Assembly: GCF_002283555.1 (NCBI RefSeq)
Contig: NZ_MVOI01000004.1
Coordinates: forward strand, 1 to 64,000
From: Rubrivirga sp. SAORIC476
GTDB taxonomy: Bacteria; Bacteroidota; Rhodothermia; Rhodothermales; Rubricoccaceae
Direction: 5' to 3'
Length of the DNA: 64,000 nt
In this document: piece after piece, positions 20,816 through 44,292 of the stretch
Numbering within the stretch: the stretch's first letter is position 1
Layout of the letters: each line of letters opens with the position of its first letter
The notes under the pieces: generated by a model
Seen by the model: the letters and a program-made list of their open reading frames with translations, nothing else
Database searches by the model: none
Told to the model about the DNA's origin: nothing
Translations under genes and position numbers: made by a program

Positions 20816-22714
20816 TCAGCGTGCGACGGTCAGCGCCAGGGGCCCTCCTGCCGCGCGACCGTCGACGACCATGCGGACGAGGTAGACCCCGCTCGGGAGG
20901 CCGCTCAGGTCCAGCGTTGTCGTGTGGGAGCCCGCCGACTGCATGGCCGCGCCGAGGCGGGTGACCTCGCGGCCCAGCGTGCTGAACACCACGATCTCGA
21001 CCTCCGCGGCCGTCGCGAGGTCGTACCGCAGGCGGCCGATCCCCGCCAGGGGGTTCGGGGCGACCGCCAGCGCCGTCACGGTCGCCTCGCGTCCGGTCTC
21101 GGTCGCGACGGCGGTCGCCTCCGAGAGCACGACGACGCGGGTCGCCAGCACGCCGTCGGCCCCGCTGGTCCCGTTCGCGGCGACCGTCTCGCCGGACGCG
21201 ATGGCGGTCCGCGGCGCGCCCGAGGCGGACACGATGCGCGTGGCGGGCGTCACGTGCACCGTCACGCCGCCGACGCGGAAGCCAGTGGGCGTCACGCCGG
21301 TCGCCAGGCCGGTGGCGCGGGCGGTCGCGCGGACCTCGATCCGCGTGGCGAGCCACCCGAGGTCGGTCACGTCGGCCCACACCTCGACCGAGGCGCCGGG
21401 CGAGATGGCGTCGAGCGTCGTCGGCGTGCCGTCACGGCCAACGATGACCGTGGCAGCGTCGACGGCGAAGGGCACCTCGATCACGGCGAGCGAGTCGGTG
21501 CCGACGCCGGTGACGGGGCCGCGCAGCTCGACTCGCGTCGCGGAGCGGTCCTCCCGCTCGATTCGGGTCGCGCGCAGGGCCCCACCGGGCGCGATGACGG
21601 CGTGGAGCTCGACTACGTCGCCCGCTGCGAGACCCGCAGGCATCACGGTCGTCGAGTCGGTCGCGAAGGCGCGTCCGAGGAGCACCACCACGCCGTCGCC
21701 GACGGCATCGAGGACGGCGGTCACCTCGACCTCGTCGTCCAGAACGTCCTCGACCTTGATGTGCGTCGCGCGGCGGACGCCCGAGGCGACCACGTCGGCG
21801 CGGATCTCGACGAACTGGCCGACGACGAGCGAGGCGAACGGGATCGGGAGGCGAGCGTCGTCCAGCACGATCGTCGCGGCGGTCACCTCGAAGCGGAGCC
21901 CTGCGACCGTGAGCGCGTCGGCCTCCAGCGCCTCGATGGCGCCCGTCAGCTCGACCTCGTCGTCCGCGAAGTCCTCGACCTCGATTCGGGTGGCGACCAG
22001 CGACCCGTCGGCGGCGTAGGCCCCGTGGACTTCGACCAGCTGCCCGACGATGAGCGACTCGAAGGCGACCTCGGTCGCGCCGTCGTGGATGCGTGTCGCC
22101 TCGGTGACGGCGAACGTCCGGCCGAGGACGGTCAGTGAGGCCGGGCCGAGGTCCTCGATGGGGCCTTTGACCTCGGCGTCCTCATCGTCGCTGTCGTCGT
22201 CGTCCCGCTCGTCGATCTCGACGCGGTCGGCGACCACCTGCCCGGTGCTGTCGACCGTGCCGCGCACCTCGACGTGGAGGCCGACGAGCAGGTCGTCGAA
22301 CGACGCCGTGCCCTCGTCGTCGCGGATCCGGGTCGCGTCGGTGACGAGGACCCACACGGCCCCGACGCGCACCGCGCTGTCGCCGCGCTCGGTGATGGGG
22401 CCTTCGAGGCGGACCTCGTCGCTGCCGTCGTCTTGGATCTCGATGCGGGTCGCCGTCAGCGTGCCCTCCGCGTCGGCGTCCCCGCGGATCTCGACGGTGA
22501 GCCCGACCGCGAGTGCGCCGACCGTCGTGTCTCCGTCGTCGTCCCGGACTTCGGTGTCCGCGGTGAGCACGAAGGTGAGGCCGTCCACCGAGACCGAGGC
22601 GTCGGACAGCGCCGTGATGGGACCGGCGGCCTCGACGTCGCCGAGGGCGAACGCCGGCGCGGCGGCGACGACGAGCAGAGCCAGGGTAGGCAGAAGGCGT
22701 AGCGAGAGCGGCAT
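20816..22714 (-). CDS. Seven-repeat DUF5666 secreted protein with sorting domain
   Basis: A 632-residue protein: signal peptide (1-23, ending AFA), then seven tandem DUF5666 repeats of about 65-75 residues (around 25-545). Repeats share the 'GPI..L....(V/L)TV.G..F.V...T.I' and '(V)G..VE(V/I)...' patterns and are joined by very acidic linkers such as DERDDDDSDDED. The last 80 residues are a sorting domain (VAPNPLAGIGRLRYDL, FSTLGREVTRL, GLPSGVYLVRM, LTVAR). It is probably exported by a type IX system. Acidic linkers could bind cations, but this is inference. ATG 22714 gives the clean signal peptide. Confidence 0.88.
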   Translation of the reverse strand: MPLSLRLLPTLALLVVAAAPAFALGDVEAAGPITALSDASVSVDGLTFVLTADTEVRDDDGDTTVGALAVGLTVEIRGDADAEGTLTATRIEIQDDGSDEVRLEGPITERGDSAVRVGAVWVLVTDATRIRDDEGTASFDDLLVGLHVEVRGTVDSTGQVVADRVEIDERDDDDSDDEDAEVKGPIEDLGPASLTVLGRTFAVTEATRIHDGATEVAFESLIVGQLVEVHGAYAADGSLVATRIEVEDFADDEVELTGAIEALEADALTVAGLRFEVTAATIVLDDARLPIPFASLVVGQFVEIRADVVASGVRRATHIKVEDVLDDEVEVTAVLDAVGDGVVVLLGRAFATDSTTVMPAGLAAGDVVELHAVIAPGGALRATRIEREDRSATRVELRGPVTGVGTDSLAVIEVPFAVDAATVIVGRDGTPTTLDAISPGASVEVWADVTDLGWLATRIEVRATARATGLATGVTPTGFRVGGVTVHVTPATRIVSASGAPRTAIASGETVAANGTSGADGVLATRVVVLSEATAVATETGREATVTALAVAPNPLAGIGRLRYDLATAAEVEIVVFSTLGREVTRLGAAMQSAGSHTTTLDLSGLPSGVYLVRMVVDGRAAGGPLALTVAR

Positions 22715-22758
22715 GGGAAGGAGGGCGTGGGAGAAAAGGGCGAGACGATCCCTCCCTT

Positions 22759-22773
22759 CCAAGACCGGTGCCA
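22759..22773 (-). promoter_or_regulatory. Sigma-54-like -24/-12 promoter of the large DUF5666 gene
   Basis: Minus-strand TGGCAC (22773-22768), 5 nt, TTGG (22762-22759), followed by AAGGG as at the 14.2-kb gene (AAAGGG). It lies 45 nt upstream of the ATG at 22714. Confidence 0.6.
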
Positions 22774-22835
22774 CACTCGACCTCCCTCATTGGGACCCGT
22801 TTGGGCCTGTTCGTGGACCCGTGGGCGCGTCCGCC

Positions 22836-38693: not shown

Positions 38694-38774
38694 GCCTCGG
38701 TCGCCCCACCGGAGCACCGAGGCAGCTGACCGCAACGCGAGCGGCCCCGCCCCTCCGAGGAGAGGCGGGGCCGC
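38694..38774 (+). terminator. Paired hairpins after fadA
   Basis: The first stem is GCCTCGGT/ACCGAGGC (38694-38701 with 38716-38723); the second GCGGCCCCGCC/GGCGGGGCCGC (38741-38751 with 38764-38774). They separate fadA from the convergent 38827-41031 gene and can act in both directions. No T-run follows either. Confidence 0.65.
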
Positions 38775-38826: not shown

Positions 38827-41031
38827 CTAGTTGCTGAACGGATACGTGACCGACTCCGAGTAGCTGAGCGTTCCGGTCCACGTCTCGACCACCTCGCCGC
38901 CGCGCCGGAGCGTCACCGTGTAGTCCGCGGGGCCCTGGTCGCACGCCGTGTAGTAGTTGACTCGGATGCCGTAGTCGCCCTGCGGCGCCGTCCCGGTCCA
39001 GACGATGTTCTCGACCGTCTCGGGCGTGGCCTGGCAGGACCGCCGGGCGTCGACGTCGAGGACTCCGCCCGAGGGCACGCTGGTGTTCTGGTAGGAGACT
39101 TCGTCGCCGGCGGGGTCCGTTACGTACAGGTCGAGGTCCACCGGCGTGCTCCACTGGAGCGTGACCTGAACGTCACCGGTCAGGATCACCGTCCCGTCGA
39201 CCTCGATCGTCTCCGACGTACCACCGACGTTGGACCAGAGGCCGTCGCGCTGCGAGCGGAGTTGGAGAACACCCCGGCGGGTCAGGCCGAGTCGTGTCCG
39301 AGCGCCCCCGCCGCTGGTCAGCGCCGACCAGATCACGTTTCCTCCCGAACCGTAGGCCACGAAGTTGCCGTCGGACGTCACGGAGACGCTCGTGATCTGG
39401 CTGTAGCTGGAGGTCACGGACTCGAGTCCCCAGACGTACCCGTTGTCAGCCGTGTAGACGACGACGTTGCCGTCGTCCTGGAAGATCATGTAGTGCGTCC
39501 ACGACTCGTTGTAGTACCGCTGGCCCCGGACGAGATCCGTGCCGGCCAGGAGCGGAAACATCGTCGCGCCGCCGCCGACCATGCCGCCCTCGACGGTCGC
39601 CCCAGCCGTCTGGACCGTCACCTCGGCAGAGACGGCGCTGGCGGTGAACGCCGCGCTCCCGGTCCCGGCGACGTCGAGCGTGCAGCCGCCGAGGAGCGCA
39701 GGCGTGGTGACCCCCGCTGCGACACACGCGGCCCGCGCGCGGTCGCGCTGGGTCGGGTTGAGGTCCGTCAGCAGGAGCGGTTCGGTGGACGTCCCGTTCT
39801 GGTTGTAGGTCGCGGTGCTGGAGCCGCCCGCGTAGCGGAAGAGCGACTCGCTGGCGGTGATGCGCCAGCTGTCACCGAACTGGCTGTACAGGGCCTCGAA
39901 GGCGAGCGGTGACGTGAGGACGCTGCCGCCGCGAACCCGCATGTCGTTGGCGCCATTGCCGTCGAGGTCGCCGATGAGGCCCGAGAAGCCCATCGACCCG
40001 CTGCCGCCGCGGGCCACGCCCACGTCGATGTGCGAGCCCGCGAACGCGCGGACGCCGACGGTGAACCCACTGGCCCACGTGATCCGGTACGACGCCGTCC
40101 CGCCACCGCTGACCTCGCAGATGGAGCCGCCACCTGGCAGCACGGTCGGCGTCCCGGACGCGACCTCGACGCGGGAGTCGCCGACGTAGACGACAGGGCC
40201 GGGCTCCAGGTAAACTCCGACCCGCGTTCCGGCGACGTTCAGCGCGACCGCCTTGTTGACGGTCACGCGCGGGTTGCTTTCCCACGGCTGCTGACGGGAC
40301 TGGACCACCACCTCGCCGTCGTTGGACGCCAGGAGCAAGAACTCGCCCGCGGCCTGGAAATCGTAGACCGTGCCGTCTGGCGTCGAGATGTGGACGTCGC
40401 CCCACGAGTTCGCGCCCGGGAGCGCCGCGCAGGCGTTGGCCGGGGCCTCGGCGGTCGGCTCGGTCTCGACTACTGATCCGTTGAGGACCACCGTGGCGCT
40501 CCGGAGGTTGTTCTGGTTGGCGCAGTCGTCCATCTGCGTCACGACGATTCGGTTCCGGCCCGTCGCGAGGTAGCGGGCGAGGTCGGCCGTGCCGGTGCCG
40601 CCCAGCTTCACGTAGCTGCCCTCGTCCACGATGCCCTGCGGGTGGTCCGCGTTGAACACGGTCACGCGCGACCCGTCGTCCATCCCGTCGAACGCGATGG
40701 TGAACGTGTTGACCTGCCCGTTGGCCGGGACGTCGACGAACGTCTGGAAGTAGGTGAAGTCCACCGCCTGGAAGCAGGCGACGGTCGAGCTCTCACTGAA
40801 GCCGATGGTCTCCGGATTCGGGGCCGGACCCCAGTTCGGGTCGCTCTCCGCTGGAATGGTGGCGAGCGCGTAGAAGGCAGGGTTGCCGTGTTCGTTGCCG
40901 TGGGCGATGCTCGAAGCATCCAGGTGCCCCTGGCCGCGGTTCATCTGCCAGTCGCTGCGCGTCTGAGCGGAGGCAGGCGAGGCCGCGAGGGCGACCGCCG
41001 CGAGGAGGAGAGTAAGTAGGGAAATACGCAT
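38827..41031 (-). CDS. Secreted VWD / B-lectin / DUF2135-like protein
   Basis: A 734-residue exported protein with a signal peptide (1-23, ending ASAQ). Residues about 60-185 form a jelly-roll-like beta region. A von Willebrand D-type domain follows (about 208-400: SWGDVHISTPDGTVYDF, GLIGDLDGNGANDM). Next is a mannose-binding bulb-lectin-type domain (about 496-602) with an intact QxDxNxVxY site at 518-526 and a partial second one at 552-560. The end (about 622-730) resembles DUF2135 (STPVDLDLYVTDPAGDEVSY, GDYGIRVNYY). The combination suggests carbohydrate binding or adhesion. No sorting domain is obvious. It stands alone. Confidence 0.83.
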   Translation of the reverse strand: MRISLLTLLLAAVALAASPASAQTRSDWQMNRGQGHLDASSIAHGNEHGNPAFYALATIPAESDPNWGPAPNPETIGFSESSTVACFQAVDFTYFQTFVDVPANGQVNTFTIAFDGMDDGSRVTVFNADHPQGIVDEGSYVKLGGTGTADLARYLATGRNRIVVTQMDDCANQNNLRSATVVLNGSVVETEPTAEAPANACAALPGANSWGDVHISTPDGTVYDFQAAGEFLLLASNDGEVVVQSRQQPWESNPRVTVNKAVALNVAGTRVGVYLEPGPVVYVGDSRVEVASGTPTVLPGGGSICEVSGGGTASYRITWASGFTVGVRAFAGSHIDVGVARGGSGSMGFSGLIGDLDGNGANDMRVRGGSVLTSPLAFEALYSQFGDSWRITASESLFRYAGGSSTATYNQNGTSTEPLLLTDLNPTQRDRARAACVAAGVTTPALLGGCTLDVAGTGSAAFTASAVSAEVTVQTAGATVEGGMVGGGATMFPLLAGTDLVRGQRYYNESWTHYMIFQDDGNVVVYTADNGYVWGLESVTSSYSQITSVSVTSDGNFVAYGSGGNVIWSALTSGGGARTRLGLTRRGVLQLRSQRDGLWSNVGGTSETIEVDGTVILTGDVQVTLQWSTPVDLDLYVTDPAGDEVSYQNTSVPSGGVLDVDARRSCQATPETVENIVWTGTAPQGDYGIRVNYYTACDQGPADYTVTLRRGGEVVETWTGTLSYSESVTYPFSN

Positions 41032-41299
41032 CGCGATGGGGAAGGGGAGCGTGTGAGCGGGAGGTCACGGGGCGATCCCGGACGAAGCCGGGGCGCACCT
41101 GACGGAGGCGGAAGACCGCCTTCGCTTCTCAATCCGTCAGCGTCGCGTACCGACTGCCACAGGGCCCAAAAAAATGTGCGCCCCCGTCCATCTCGGCGCT
41201 CCTTCGCGGGGGAGCCGACCCGTACCTGGCGAGGAGCGAGCAGGACGTGCTCCCCAGACCTGAGGCCGTTACCTTTTCTGAGCCCCATTCGCTCCCCAC

Positions 41300-41851
41300 G
41301 TGGACGCATCTGACACTCTTGCCCTGATCAACGCCGTCCGAGGCGGTGACGACCGTGCGGCAGATGTCCTGTTCTCGAGGGTGTACGGCGACCTGCGCCG
41401 CATCGCACAGCGCCGCATCTCGTCGCAGAGGGGCCCGGTGACGCTCTCGGCCACCGGGCTCGTCCACGAGGCGTACGTCAAGATGGTCGATGGCGGCGAC
41501 TGGGTCGACCGGTCTCACTTCCTGGCGGTCGCGGCGCGGGCGATGCGCGAAATCCTGATCGATCGCGCGCGGGCGCGGAGCGCGGCCAAGCGAGGCGGCG
41601 GTGCCCGCCCGGTCACGCTCGACGCCGACCTCGTCGGCGCCGAGAACGATGTCCTCGATCAGGTGCTGGCCCTCGACTTCGCGCTGGGGCGTCTCGCCGA
41701 GCGGGACGCCGATCTCGCCCAGATCGTGGAACTGCGCTTCTTCGGTGGCTTGGAGGTGGAGGAGGCCGCCCAGGTGCAGGGGGTGTCCGTGCGGACCGCA
41801 GCGCGCCGGTGGGCGCGGGCCAAGGCGCACCTCCACGCGCTTCTCGCTTGA
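41300..41851 (+). CDS. ECF-type RNA polymerase sigma factor
   Basis: A 183-residue sigma factor of the TIGR02999-like ECF group common in Planctomycetes and Rhodothermota. Region 2 covers about 15-95 (LFSRVYGDLRRIAQRR, LVHEAYVKM, FLAVAARAMREILIDRARAR), region 4 about 125-180 (IVELRFFGGLEVEEAAQ, SVRTAARRWARAKAHL). The start is GTG 41300. The stop overlaps the start of a Ser/Thr kinase gene by one base (TGATG), the arrangement expected when the kinase controls the sigma factor. Confidence 0.92.
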   Translation: MDASDTLALINAVRGGDDRAADVLFSRVYGDLRRIAQRRISSQRGPVTLSATGLVHEAYVKMVDGGDWVDRSHFLAVAARAMREILIDRARARSAAKRGGGARPVTLDADLVGAENDVLDQVLALDFALGRLAERDADLAQIVELRFFGGLEVEEAAQVQGVSVRTAARRWARAKAHLHALLA

Positions 41852-44292
41852 TGTCCGCCCGCTCTGCCGACACCGGTCCCGATTGGGTCGCCCTCGACGC
41901 GGCCCTCGACCAGGCTCTCGACATGAACGAGAGCGAGCGGGACGGCTTTCTCGCGTCGCTCGACCCTGCGCTACGAGCAGCCCTGGACCCACTGCTCCGT
42001 GACGCGCTGCGCGCCGACTCGTTTCTGGAGCGGGCCGAGGCCATGCTCGCCCCCCTGGTGTGCGCACCCGAGGCGGTGGTGGAAGAGGGCGTCCGCGTTG
42101 GACCCTATCGCATCGACGCCCTGATCGGGGAGGGGGGGATGGGGCGGGTGTACCGCGCCCACCGTGCCGACGGTGCCTTCGACCAGACGGTTGCCCTCAA
42201 GGTGGTTCGCCAGTCGCTCGCGCTCGCCGGGACCGACGTGGCCGCCCGGCTCCGGTGCGAGCGCGACTTCCTCGCCACCCTCGATCACCCCGGCATCGCC
42301 CGCCTCATCGACGGCGGCGAGACGAGCGACGGCGTGCCCTACCTCGTCACTGAGTTCGTCGACGGCGCACCGATCACGACCTGGGCCGACGCCCACGCGC
42401 TCGTCGTCCGCGACCGGGTCCGTCTCGTGGCCGAGGTGGCCCGGGCCGTGGACCATGCCCACCGTCGGTTCGTGGTACACCGCGACCTCAAACCGTCGAA
42501 CGTGCTCGTGACGGAGCGTGACGGCGCGCCGCGGCCGGTCGTCCTCGACTTCGGCATCGCGAAGCTGCTGGCGGAGGCCGAGGAAGGGACGGGCGCGTTC
42601 CCGCTCACGCGCACCGGCATGCGGATGCTCACGCCGGCCTATGCGGCGCCCGAGTTGTTCGACTCGACGCTGGGCGTCACGGCCGCTGCCGACGTCTACG
42701 GCCTCGGTGCGCTGCTCTACGAGTTGCTGACGGGGGCGCGCCCTCACGGCGACGCGCCTGTCGTTCCCGTTACGGAGCCGACGCGTCCGTCGCAGGTGGT
42801 ACGCGAAGCCAGGGCGCAGCCGACATCGAGCACGGGGGCGCTCGCCCGCTCGCTGCGGGGCGACCTGGATGTGATCTGCCTGAAGGCGCTCCACCCGGAC
42901 CCGGCCCGGCGCTACCCCAGCGCAGCCGACCTCGCGGTCGACCTGGAGCGCCACCTGGACGGTCGCCCCGTCGAGGCGCGACCGGACTCTCTGTGGTACG
43001 TCGCCGGACGATTCGCGCGGCGCAACCGGGCTGCCGTCGCCGCCGGAGCGCTGGCACTTCTCTTCCTCGTGGGAGGGCTCGTGATTTCGCTGGTCTCACT
43101 CAACGCTGAGCGGGCCGCGCACGCCGAGGCCGAGGCCGAGGCGCGGCGCGCCACCGAGTCGGTCGCCCTGCTCTCCGATGTCTTCCTGGAATCCGATCCC
43201 TACCACGCCGGCCAGGACGTGACCGTCCGCGAGGTCCTCGGTACCGCCCTCGACCGTGTGCGCACCATGAGCACGCCTGAAACGCGGAGCCGAATGCTGG
43301 TCATGTTCGGCCATCTCCACAACCAGTGGGGGGAGTTCAGCCAGAGCGAGGACCTCTACCGCGAGGCCGCCCAGGCTGCCAGCGGCGGGTCGGTGGAGCA
43401 ACAGGCAGAGGCGCGCTACGGCCTCGGGCGCTCGCTCGGAGCGCAGGGGCGGTACCGCGAGGCGCTCCCCCTCTTCGAACAGGTCTACGCCGACCTCGCC
43501 ACCGAGTCCGACCTGGTGCCGCTGCGGTTTCGCGTCCTCCGAGACGTCGCCTGGATTCAGCGCGAACAGGGGAACGTGCAGGGCGCCATCCGAACCGCAG
43601 AGCGAGCCGTAGAGATCGGGCGAGCGCTCGACGAAGAGGAGACGTCGTTGGCCCTGTACGAGTTGGCCTCGACCCTCCTGGCTGCCGGACGCGCCGACGT
43701 GGCGCTGCCGTTCGCCCAGGAGGTCTATGATATCGACACGCGACTGTTCGGGCGCCTGCACGCCGAGTCGGCGCACGCCATCGGACTGCTCGGCGAGGTC
43801 CAGTACCGCCTCAGCCACCTCGACGAGGCGGCGAGGCTCCAGTCGGACGCCCTCGCCATCCAGCGGCGCGCGCTCGGGAGACAGCATCCCTACACGGCGC
43901 AAGCGCACGTGGCGCTCGCCCGGACCCTGCTCGCGGCAGGGGACGCCCGAGGCGGGGTCGCCCAGGCCGACTCCGCCCTGGCCCTCGCGGCGGGTATCCG
44001 CGCCGACTCGTCGTTGTGGCAGTCCGTGCTGGGCATCCGCGCGGCGGCGCTCAACCAGGCCGGGCGGTTCGTCGAGGCGGAGCAGGTGGCCCGCGAAGGA
44101 CTCGGGTGGGTTCCGCAGGAGGACCCCGCCGGCACCGTGGAGTTGGACGCGCACTGGGCACTCGCCCGGCTTGGCCAGGGGAGAGCGGTGTCTCCCTCGC
44201 TCCGCGCGACGATGGAGGCGCTCGACCGGTCCGACCCGCTGCTGAGCCGCCTCCACGCGCGGCTGACCCAACTCCAGGGCGGCTCGCGCTGA
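41851..44292 (+). CDS. Membrane Ser/Thr protein kinase with periplasmic TPR-like region
   Basis: An 813-residue Hanks-type kinase. Glycine loop GEGGMGRVY (93-101), Lys117, HRDLKPSN (210-217) and DFG (233-235) are all intact. One transmembrane helix (about 394-417) separates it from a C-terminal region of about 390 residues rich in TPR-like helices (GEFSQSEDLYREAAQAA, GRYREALPLFEQVYADL). The preceding ECF sigma gene overlaps it, so the kinase probably phosphorylates that sigma or a bound partner. The N-terminal 80 residues look helical. ATG 41851 is the start. Confidence 0.92.
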   Translation: MSARSADTGPDWVALDAALDQALDMNESERDGFLASLDPALRAALDPLLRDALRADSFLERAEAMLAPLVCAPEAVVEEGVRVGPYRIDALIGEGGMGRVYRAHRADGAFDQTVALKVVRQSLALAGTDVAARLRCERDFLATLDHPGIARLIDGGETSDGVPYLVTEFVDGAPITTWADAHALVVRDRVRLVAEVARAVDHAHRRFVVHRDLKPSNVLVTERDGAPRPVVLDFGIAKLLAEAEEGTGAFPLTRTGMRMLTPAYAAPELFDSTLGVTAAADVYGLGALLYELLTGARPHGDAPVVPVTEPTRPSQVVREARAQPTSSTGALARSLRGDLDVICLKALHPDPARRYPSAADLAVDLERHLDGRPVEARPDSLWYVAGRFARRNRAAVAAGALALLFLVGGLVISLVSLNAERAAHAEAEAEARRATESVALLSDVFLESDPYHAGQDVTVREVLGTALDRVRTMSTPETRSRMLVMFGHLHNQWGEFSQSEDLYREAAQAASGGSVEQQAEARYGLGRSLGAQGRYREALPLFEQVYADLATESDLVPLRFRVLRDVAWIQREQGNVQGAIRTAERAVEIGRALDEEETSLALYELASTLLAAGRADVALPFAQEVYDIDTRLFGRLHAESAHAIGLLGEVQYRLSHLDEAARLQSDALAIQRRALGRQHPYTAQAHVALARTLLAAGDARGGVAQADSALALAAGIRADSSLWQSVLGIRAAALNQAGRFVEAEQVAREGLGWVPQEDPAGTVELDAHWALARLGQGRAVSPSLRATMEALDRSDPLLSRLHARLTQLQGGSR

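Follow-up and report, generated by a model that had tools for sequence, protein, structure and literature searches.

A predicted exported protein combining VWD and lectin domains, encoded beside an ECF sigma factor-kinase gene pair in Rubrivirga sp. SAORIC476

The sites of MMBL-type lectins are described, in the sections of PMC3585409 and PMC6240691 drawn on here, as binding mannose or related sugars. The same sections attribute a low mannose affinity to LlpA, which has two canonical motifs in its C-domain, while pyocin L1, an MMBL protein, is reported to bind an O-antigen sugar in the form of D-rhamnose LPS (cited section of PMC3916391). For the VWD domain, the relevant section of PMC10880436 reports that the GDPH motif is cleaved between Asp and Pro and that mutations of this motif block cleavage in FCGBP. 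Hanks kinases, according to the section of PMC13147305 used here, can activate ECF factors.

The window, by which we mean the whole 64,000-nucleotide stretch of DNA analyzed (contig NZ_MVOI01000004.1), contains a minus-strand ORF whose product we refer to as P0001 (Table 1); G and L numbers are our labels for compared genomes and loci. Since the third-position G+C of this ORF is 0.91, base composition by codon position supports this frame as coding, and by gene order the gene is apparently monocistronic. The mature protein is ~74 kDa with a pI of 4.4. The N-domain, the VWD block (201 and 305), the C8-like block and the C-domain contribute two cysteines apiece to its total of eight, which fits the expectation for an exported protein. 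Export was also proposed in the initial annotation and agrees with the Sec-type signal peptide that we recognized by eye; we expect P0001 to be Sec-exported and probably disulfide-bonded. That annotation listed VWD, a lectin and a DUF2135-like end, and missed the unnamed N-domain, the insert and the adjoining ECF-kinase pair.

Table 1. Features of the P0001 gene and its surroundings (window coordinates).
Feature	Coordinates	Strand	Details
P0001 gene	38827..41031	-	734 aa, ATG start
Sec signal peptide	40966..41031	-	residues 1-22, cleavage ...ASA|Q, by eye
N-domain, unnamed	40456..40962	-	residues 24-192, two invariant Cys (86, 170)
VWD domain	39925..40404	-	residues 210-369, Pfam; GDPH reads GDVH; loop GLIGDLDGNGANDM
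C8-like region after VWD	39622..39924	-	residues 370-470, alignment with VWD relatives
MMBL-type lectin domain	39226..39552	-	residues 494-602; Pfam, NCBIfam and PDB sequence matches
Intact lectin site QDDGNVVVY	39454..39480	-	residues 518-526
C-domain, DUF2135/PPC-like, predicted beta-sandwich	38830..39222	-	residues 604-734, AlphaFold2 pLDDT 93.4
Insert vs G004 counterpart	39226..40455	-	residues ~193-602, global alignment
G+C-rich inverted repeat	38741..38774	.	between two convergent genes, by eye; possible terminator without T run
Candidate promoter TGGCAG-N17-CGGA	41133..41159	-	first half as in relatives, second half vs their CGCT
ECF sigma factor (Sigma70_ECF, PF07638)	41300..41851	+	E 2e-46, divergent neighbor of P0001 gene
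Hanks-type Ser/Thr kinase with TPR repeats	41809..44292	+	adjoins ECF gene; true start probably later

The VWD assignment held up in the HMM search, in which PF00094 matched above its Pfam cut-off (E 4.2e-07; 30.8 bits vs 22.9). Cys 436 and 450 of the C8-like region are shared with those VWD relatives whose alignment reaches that far, and the FCGBP match in the PDB sequence search covers residues 205-485. P0001 is without the GDPH autocleavage motif, which occurs in many VWD domains, not all, and is therefore not a defining feature; the 11 VWD matches from ten class genomes have GDPH (nine) or GHPH (two), in contrast to the GDVH of P0001. Because of this replacement we infer that its VWD domain stays uncut at Asp-Pro, and the VWD/C8-like block may act as a rigid or self-associating spacer. 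We take the loop GLIGDLDGNGANDM to resemble the calcium-binding loop of VWD domains, making it a putative site of that kind. Among the papers listed in literature searches for VWD in bacteria, none was relevant as judged by titles and the start of abstracts.

The lectin domain is backed more firmly by NCBIfam and PDB sequences than by Pfam B_lectin. The bulb-lectin profile that would match the original domain call, B_lectin (PF01453), remained below its cut-off (residues 515-570, E 0.025, 15.5 bits vs 32.4), whereas the NCBIfam model LLB_putidacin (NF033557) matched residues 494-594 with an E-value of 4.5e-13, and PDB sequence matches were found to pyocin L1 (E 1.4e-07), putidacin L1 (E 7.2e-07) and the 4oit lectin (E 3.8e-06). 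Q518, D520, N522, V524 and Y526 are all present, exactly as first described, and form one intact QxDxNxVxY site. A second repeat at 552 reads TSDGNFVAY, with the Gln replaced, and no third repeat was found in a pattern scan of residues 491-610. Through its single intact site the domain may bind a terminal mannose-like sugar; one canonical site is nevertheless weak evidence for mannose specificity, given that LlpA with two binds mannose weakly.

LLB_putidacin is also the nearest curated sequence family, while among PDB chains pyocins L1 and L2 and putidacin L1 come closest. Both results would be expected if P0001 were a bacteriocin of the lectin-like LlpA/LlpB type that targets competing bacteria. 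We regard this as very improbable, based on the facts that the NCBIfam score of 49.2 bits is far from the whole-protein cut-off of 275, that the one lectin domain lies between other domains rather than in tandem, and that LlpA ends in a short beta-hairpin extension (sections of PMC6240691/PMC3585409 cited here) where P0001 has a 130-aa domain.

Several other lectin-like proteins were observed. A second one in the same genome (L003:1276-2379; C3, ~1672246-1673349) is joined to a CAP/SCP domain (CAP E 5.7e-14). Its lectin part has 27-28% identity to P0001 and sites that by eye appear degenerate, and its gene belongs to the locus whose ECF-kinase pair is the closest paralogue of that in the window. 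In G100, a distant class member, a 742-aa ORF (L116:1080-3305) has B-lectin repeats and a PI-PLC-X domain, and in G169 the C-terminal end of an asparaginase (L117:1171-2751) weakly matches B-lectin.

That the combination is unusual, as already suspected, is borne out by our surveys. A VWD+lectin query matched 11 of 244 class genomes, the ten besides the Rubrivirga genome itself by the VWD part only, and 6 of 395 phylum genomes, with both parts covered only in the Rubrivirga genome; in both surveys there were genomes in which scoring did not extend to every first-look candidate. Nineteen of 72,556 plasmid records matched the query, none over 80% of it, and the best 15 of these covered at most 34%, with one domain each. 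PF01453 at E 0.001 was found in only two of the 244 class genomes, and this profile undercounts because the lectins of the Rubrivirga genome, which was not one of the two, were missed. A scan of genome contigs with P0001 found no relative. VWD and an MMBL-type lectin in one protein is therefore a rare combination.

This architecture can be compared with that in G004 (Rubricoccaceae), which encodes a lipoprotein-like protein whose N-domain runs directly into the C-domain. The global alignment of the two proteins has one large gap, after residue 192 to ~602-606, flanked by 49-51% identity on the N-terminal side and 70% on the C-terminal side, so that VWD and lectin together are, by this alignment, a clean insert relative to G004. 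An architecture that is unique among the genomes searched and has only one intact lectin repeat could have arisen by chance or degeneration, without sugar binding, or as an assembly chimera of unrelated genes. We consider this unlikely, as the edges of the insert fall between two domains and four segments of P0001 share a third-position G+C of 0.89-0.92 and a single open frame.

Other relatives have other modules. G006 encodes a fascin-like domain on a C-domain 74% identical to that of P0001 (Fascin E 4.2e-04, under the Pfam cut-off), and G172, of the same order, has the N-domain with a ricin-type lectin (Ricin_B_lectin E 3.8e-14). The C-domains closest to that of P0001 (74 and 70%) are those in the ECF-kinase neighborhoods of G006 and G004. 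For eight of the 12 P0001-related proteins in the family, the match is confined to the C-domain, at 33-52% identity; their coordinates place them tens of kb from the ECF matches or on different contigs. As the fascin-like domain of G006 is below cut-off and G004 is without a lectin, an exchange of lectins in the strict sense rests on few cases.

The DUF2135-like end of the first domain list is right in kind, although P0001 on its own does not reach the cut-off for DUF2135 (PF09906; E 0.042, 14.4 bits vs 22) or for PPC (PF04151; E 0.009). Among 38 aligned C-domains (the window and 37 of 76 loci, the remaining 39 being left out as mostly shorter or weaker matches), DUF2135 was matched by 17 at E 0.01 (best E 5.7e-08) and PPC likewise by 17, P0001 included (best E 5.6e-06). 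The DUF2135/PPC-like character of the C-domain is accordingly weak for P0001 alone and better supported for the 38-sequence set. AlphaFold2 predicted a beta-sandwich from the 38-sequence alignment; in VIA this model scored best with a TerD-like protein (Z 8.8), against Z 5.8 for Tk-SP. The Foldseek/VIA matches to TerD, DUF4425 and others were near the level that the tool deems common, and Foldseek gave no match at E 0.001. A literature search on DUF2135 found no paper.

We also considered the C-domain as a new type IX tail and rejected this, since the domain is also present in proteins where visual inspection suggests a ubiquitin-like part and a membrane span, and in loci titled Myxococcota, Chloroflexi, Actinobacteria and others. 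Of 76 C-domain loci, 56 were examined; they gave 54 ORFs with a closed end, the C-domain ending within 35 aa of it in 41, and a lipobox-like pattern was present in 12 of the 56 loci. The ubiquitin-like examples are in G002 and G003 (L006 and L007), where by eye an N-terminal ubiquitin-like part and a membrane span precede a C-domain of the P0001 type; the G002 protein matched no Pfam family at E 0.01.

The N-domain had no named Pfam or NCBIfam family above cut-off, so that P0001 yields an unnamed exported domain, found in five proteins (P0001 included) of which at least two have a lectin module. It occurs in 3 of 244 class genomes, in 4 of 395 phylum genomes (a set overlapping that of the class) and in 2 of 395 genomes of the class of G266, both already known. 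A match to Glyco_hydro_2_N in two of the five members (Pfam, E 0.047) is a lead towards a galactose-binding-like fold, rather than a result; the NCBIfam match (E 0.057) is at chance level. Profile searches against the PDB gave no convincing relative (best E 0.33 and 1.2), and because AlphaFold2 of the N-domain alone had a pLDDT of 44, the model was kept out of fold searches. Elsewhere in the phylum, the N-domain is part of two long ORFs: one of 1559 aa in G266, together with HYR domains, Ig-like domains and a type IX sorting tail, and one of 2887 aa in G484, which also has TLDc, Ig-like and cadherin-like domains and matches a C-type lectin just over cut-off.

The gene neighborhood of P0001 is partly conserved. 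On one side lie plus-strand AMP-binding, acyl-CoA dehydrogenase, FadJ-like and thiolase genes, the last convergent with the P0001 gene, and on the other, divergent from it, the genes for the ECF sigma factor, the Hanks kinase with TPRs and an AbgT transporter. G006 keeps both sides around its fascin-C gene, i.e., AMP-binding/ACAD/FadJ/thiolase at 79-88% identity and ECF/kinase/AbgT at 68, 53, and 89%; its interval also includes a regulator-like ORF and an RCC1/cohesin ORF of 850 aa that carries a sorting tail. The gene of G004 is divergent from ECF/kinase (63 and 50%), as in the window, and the thiolase side is not kept. G172 keeps ECF/kinase (65 and 50%), its gene being beyond the kinase and convergent, with one small gene between. 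The second ECF-kinase pair of the Rubrivirga genome (ECF 69%) is followed by genes for a regulator-like protein, for an NHL-propeller protein that has a sorting tail, and for the lectin-like CAP protein. Two ORFs separate the ECF gene from the lectin-like gene, whose lectin part is recognized only by its identity to P0001.

Among 72 ECF matches in nine family genomes, four are at 63% identity or more (the window, the second Rubrivirga locus, G006 and G004), all beside P0001-related genes, and none of the remaining 68 exceeds 51%. Blastp in 10.9-18 kb around each of seven of these more distant ECF genes (G001, G002, G003, two in G005, G007, and G008) found no P0001-like gene. Within the Rubrivirga genome (G000), the ECF sigma factor of the window gave 17 matches.

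Perhaps the ECF-kinase pair controls the P0001 gene. Six upstream regions were compared (P0001, G004, G006, G172, and two from the second Rubrivirga locus, i.e., one locus), and the best shared 6-mer/gap/4-mer, TGGCAG-N17-CGCT, was present in four of the six; none of 300 first-order Markov resamplings reached four (maximum three). The motif was derived from the very loci on which it is scored. The candidate promoter of P0001 matches only half of it, and that of G006 reads TGGCCG-N17-CGCT. TGGCAGWC-N15-CGCT had eight sites in the nine family genomes vs 19 for the reversed control, and thus is not a widespread regulon signal. Three of the eight are in ECF-kinase loci, two precede lipoprotein-like ORFs (one in the Rubrivirga genome, one in G002), and the remaining three have no ORF start within 400 bases. 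At L160:1501, the third Rubrivirga site, an ATG 25 bases on starts an ORF for a lipoprotein-like product of 120 aa, which may be another target of this type of promoter. Within 200 bases of the ECF gene, a GGCAGWC oriented outward from it was found at three of the five close loci (not G006 or G172) and at none of 15 other ECF loci in the Rubrivirga genome. A two-part pattern applied to the window had no site at up to three mismatches. GTGGCAGTC alone was rejected as a specific signal, with four sites in the window vs 0.82 expected and one of 100 shuffles having as many. The shared motif is suggestive of common control, and weakest for P0001 itself.

Where the protein acts bears on two further readings. 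In the Rubrivirga genome a search for the type IX sorting tail (TIGR04183) gave 128 matches, one of them in the window ORF 20816-22774. As P0001 has none (neither TIGR04183 nor PF18962 matched at E 1), its surface exposure is doubtful. The initial annotation is thus supported in its domains and in export, and unsupported in the adhesin role and the algal surfaces. A cell-surface or released adhesin attaching the bacterium to mannose-rich glycans, e.g., those of algal surfaces, would suit the signal peptide and the intact lectin site, as well as the type IX tails in three of four VWD relatives scanned with Pfam (G117, G135, and G206, not G175) and in the G266 N-domain protein. Besides the missing tail, the single site in a single lectin domain speaks against it, as does the G484 N-domain protein, with no sorting-tail match at E 0.001, and no link to algae was found, so that we hold this reading to be rather doubtful. 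Equally tentative is the view that P0001 is a periplasmic or outer-membrane protein, under envelope-signal control, whose lectin fold binds the cell's own glycans (e.g., lipopolysaccharide or exopolysaccharide) while the VWD block and C-domain support the envelope. The missing tail, the adjoining ECF-kinase pair, the lipoprotein-like appearance (by eye) of the G004 counterpart and of a C-domain relative in the Rubrivirga genome, and the LPS binding of pyocin L1 (cited section of PMC3916391) are all consistent with it; the sorting tails of the VWD relatives are not.

Our best explanation, which we put at an even balance, is that P0001 is an exported modular glycan-binding protein whose frame is kept beside one type of ECF-kinase pair, with the recognition module exchanged between or beside the frame domains. 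The frame would consist of the N-domain and the DUF2135/PPC-like C-domain, kept wholly or partly in relatives, and the exchanged sugar-recognizing part would be VWD with the MMBL-type lectin in P0001, a fascin-like domain in G006 and a ricin-type lectin in G172, and would be absent from G004. By analogy, the neighboring kinase may phosphorylate and so activate the ECF factor, which in turn may transcribe the P0001 gene, a candidate target for the pair. A stronger form, in which the ECF-Hanks kinase pair governs the exported protein and these same modules, or none, are replaced as a block in a persisting frame that includes the N-domain, in the family and one same-order relative, we advance only tentatively, as falling short of probable. 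If true, such a locus would give the cell a regulated way to change the glycan that it recognizes; if confirmed, one gene neighborhood would allow the exchange of glycan recognition to be compared across relatives, with gene order guiding orthology.

Compared with known systems, P0001 is closest in sequence to MMBL/B_lectin proteins, especially the LlpA/putidacin and pyocin L1 bacteriocins, with which it shares kinship and one intact QxDxNxVxY site; it differs in falling under the Pfam B_lectin cut-off, in lacking the bacteriocin architecture, and in having its single lectin domain within an exported protein with VWD and two further domains. Bacterial VWD proteins, both of its own class and encoded by plasmids of Deinococcus, Nostoc, and Azospirillum, have a VWD domain, mostly with the C8-like block, at 27-41% identity to P0001, but these matches are without a lectin, and the class relatives differ further in their cleavage motifs and type IX tails, as noted above. 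DUF2135 and PPC domains resemble the C-domain in the matches described and the predicted beta-sandwich, as does the C-terminal region of the Tk-SP protease (profile match E 1.6e-05 over 34 profile positions); unlike them, the C-domain of P0001 scores under both cut-offs and is joined to a VWD-lectin block. In the ECF43 pairs EcfK/PknS and EcfP/PknT the ECF gene likewise adjoins a Ser/Thr kinase gene (cited section of PMC13147305), whereas the ECF factor of the window matches Sigma70_ECF, has an exported lectin gene as its divergent neighbor, and is paired with its kinase by gene order. P0001 therefore appears to be a new variety of modular bacterial lectin, with its recognition module exchanged beside one ECF-kinase type.
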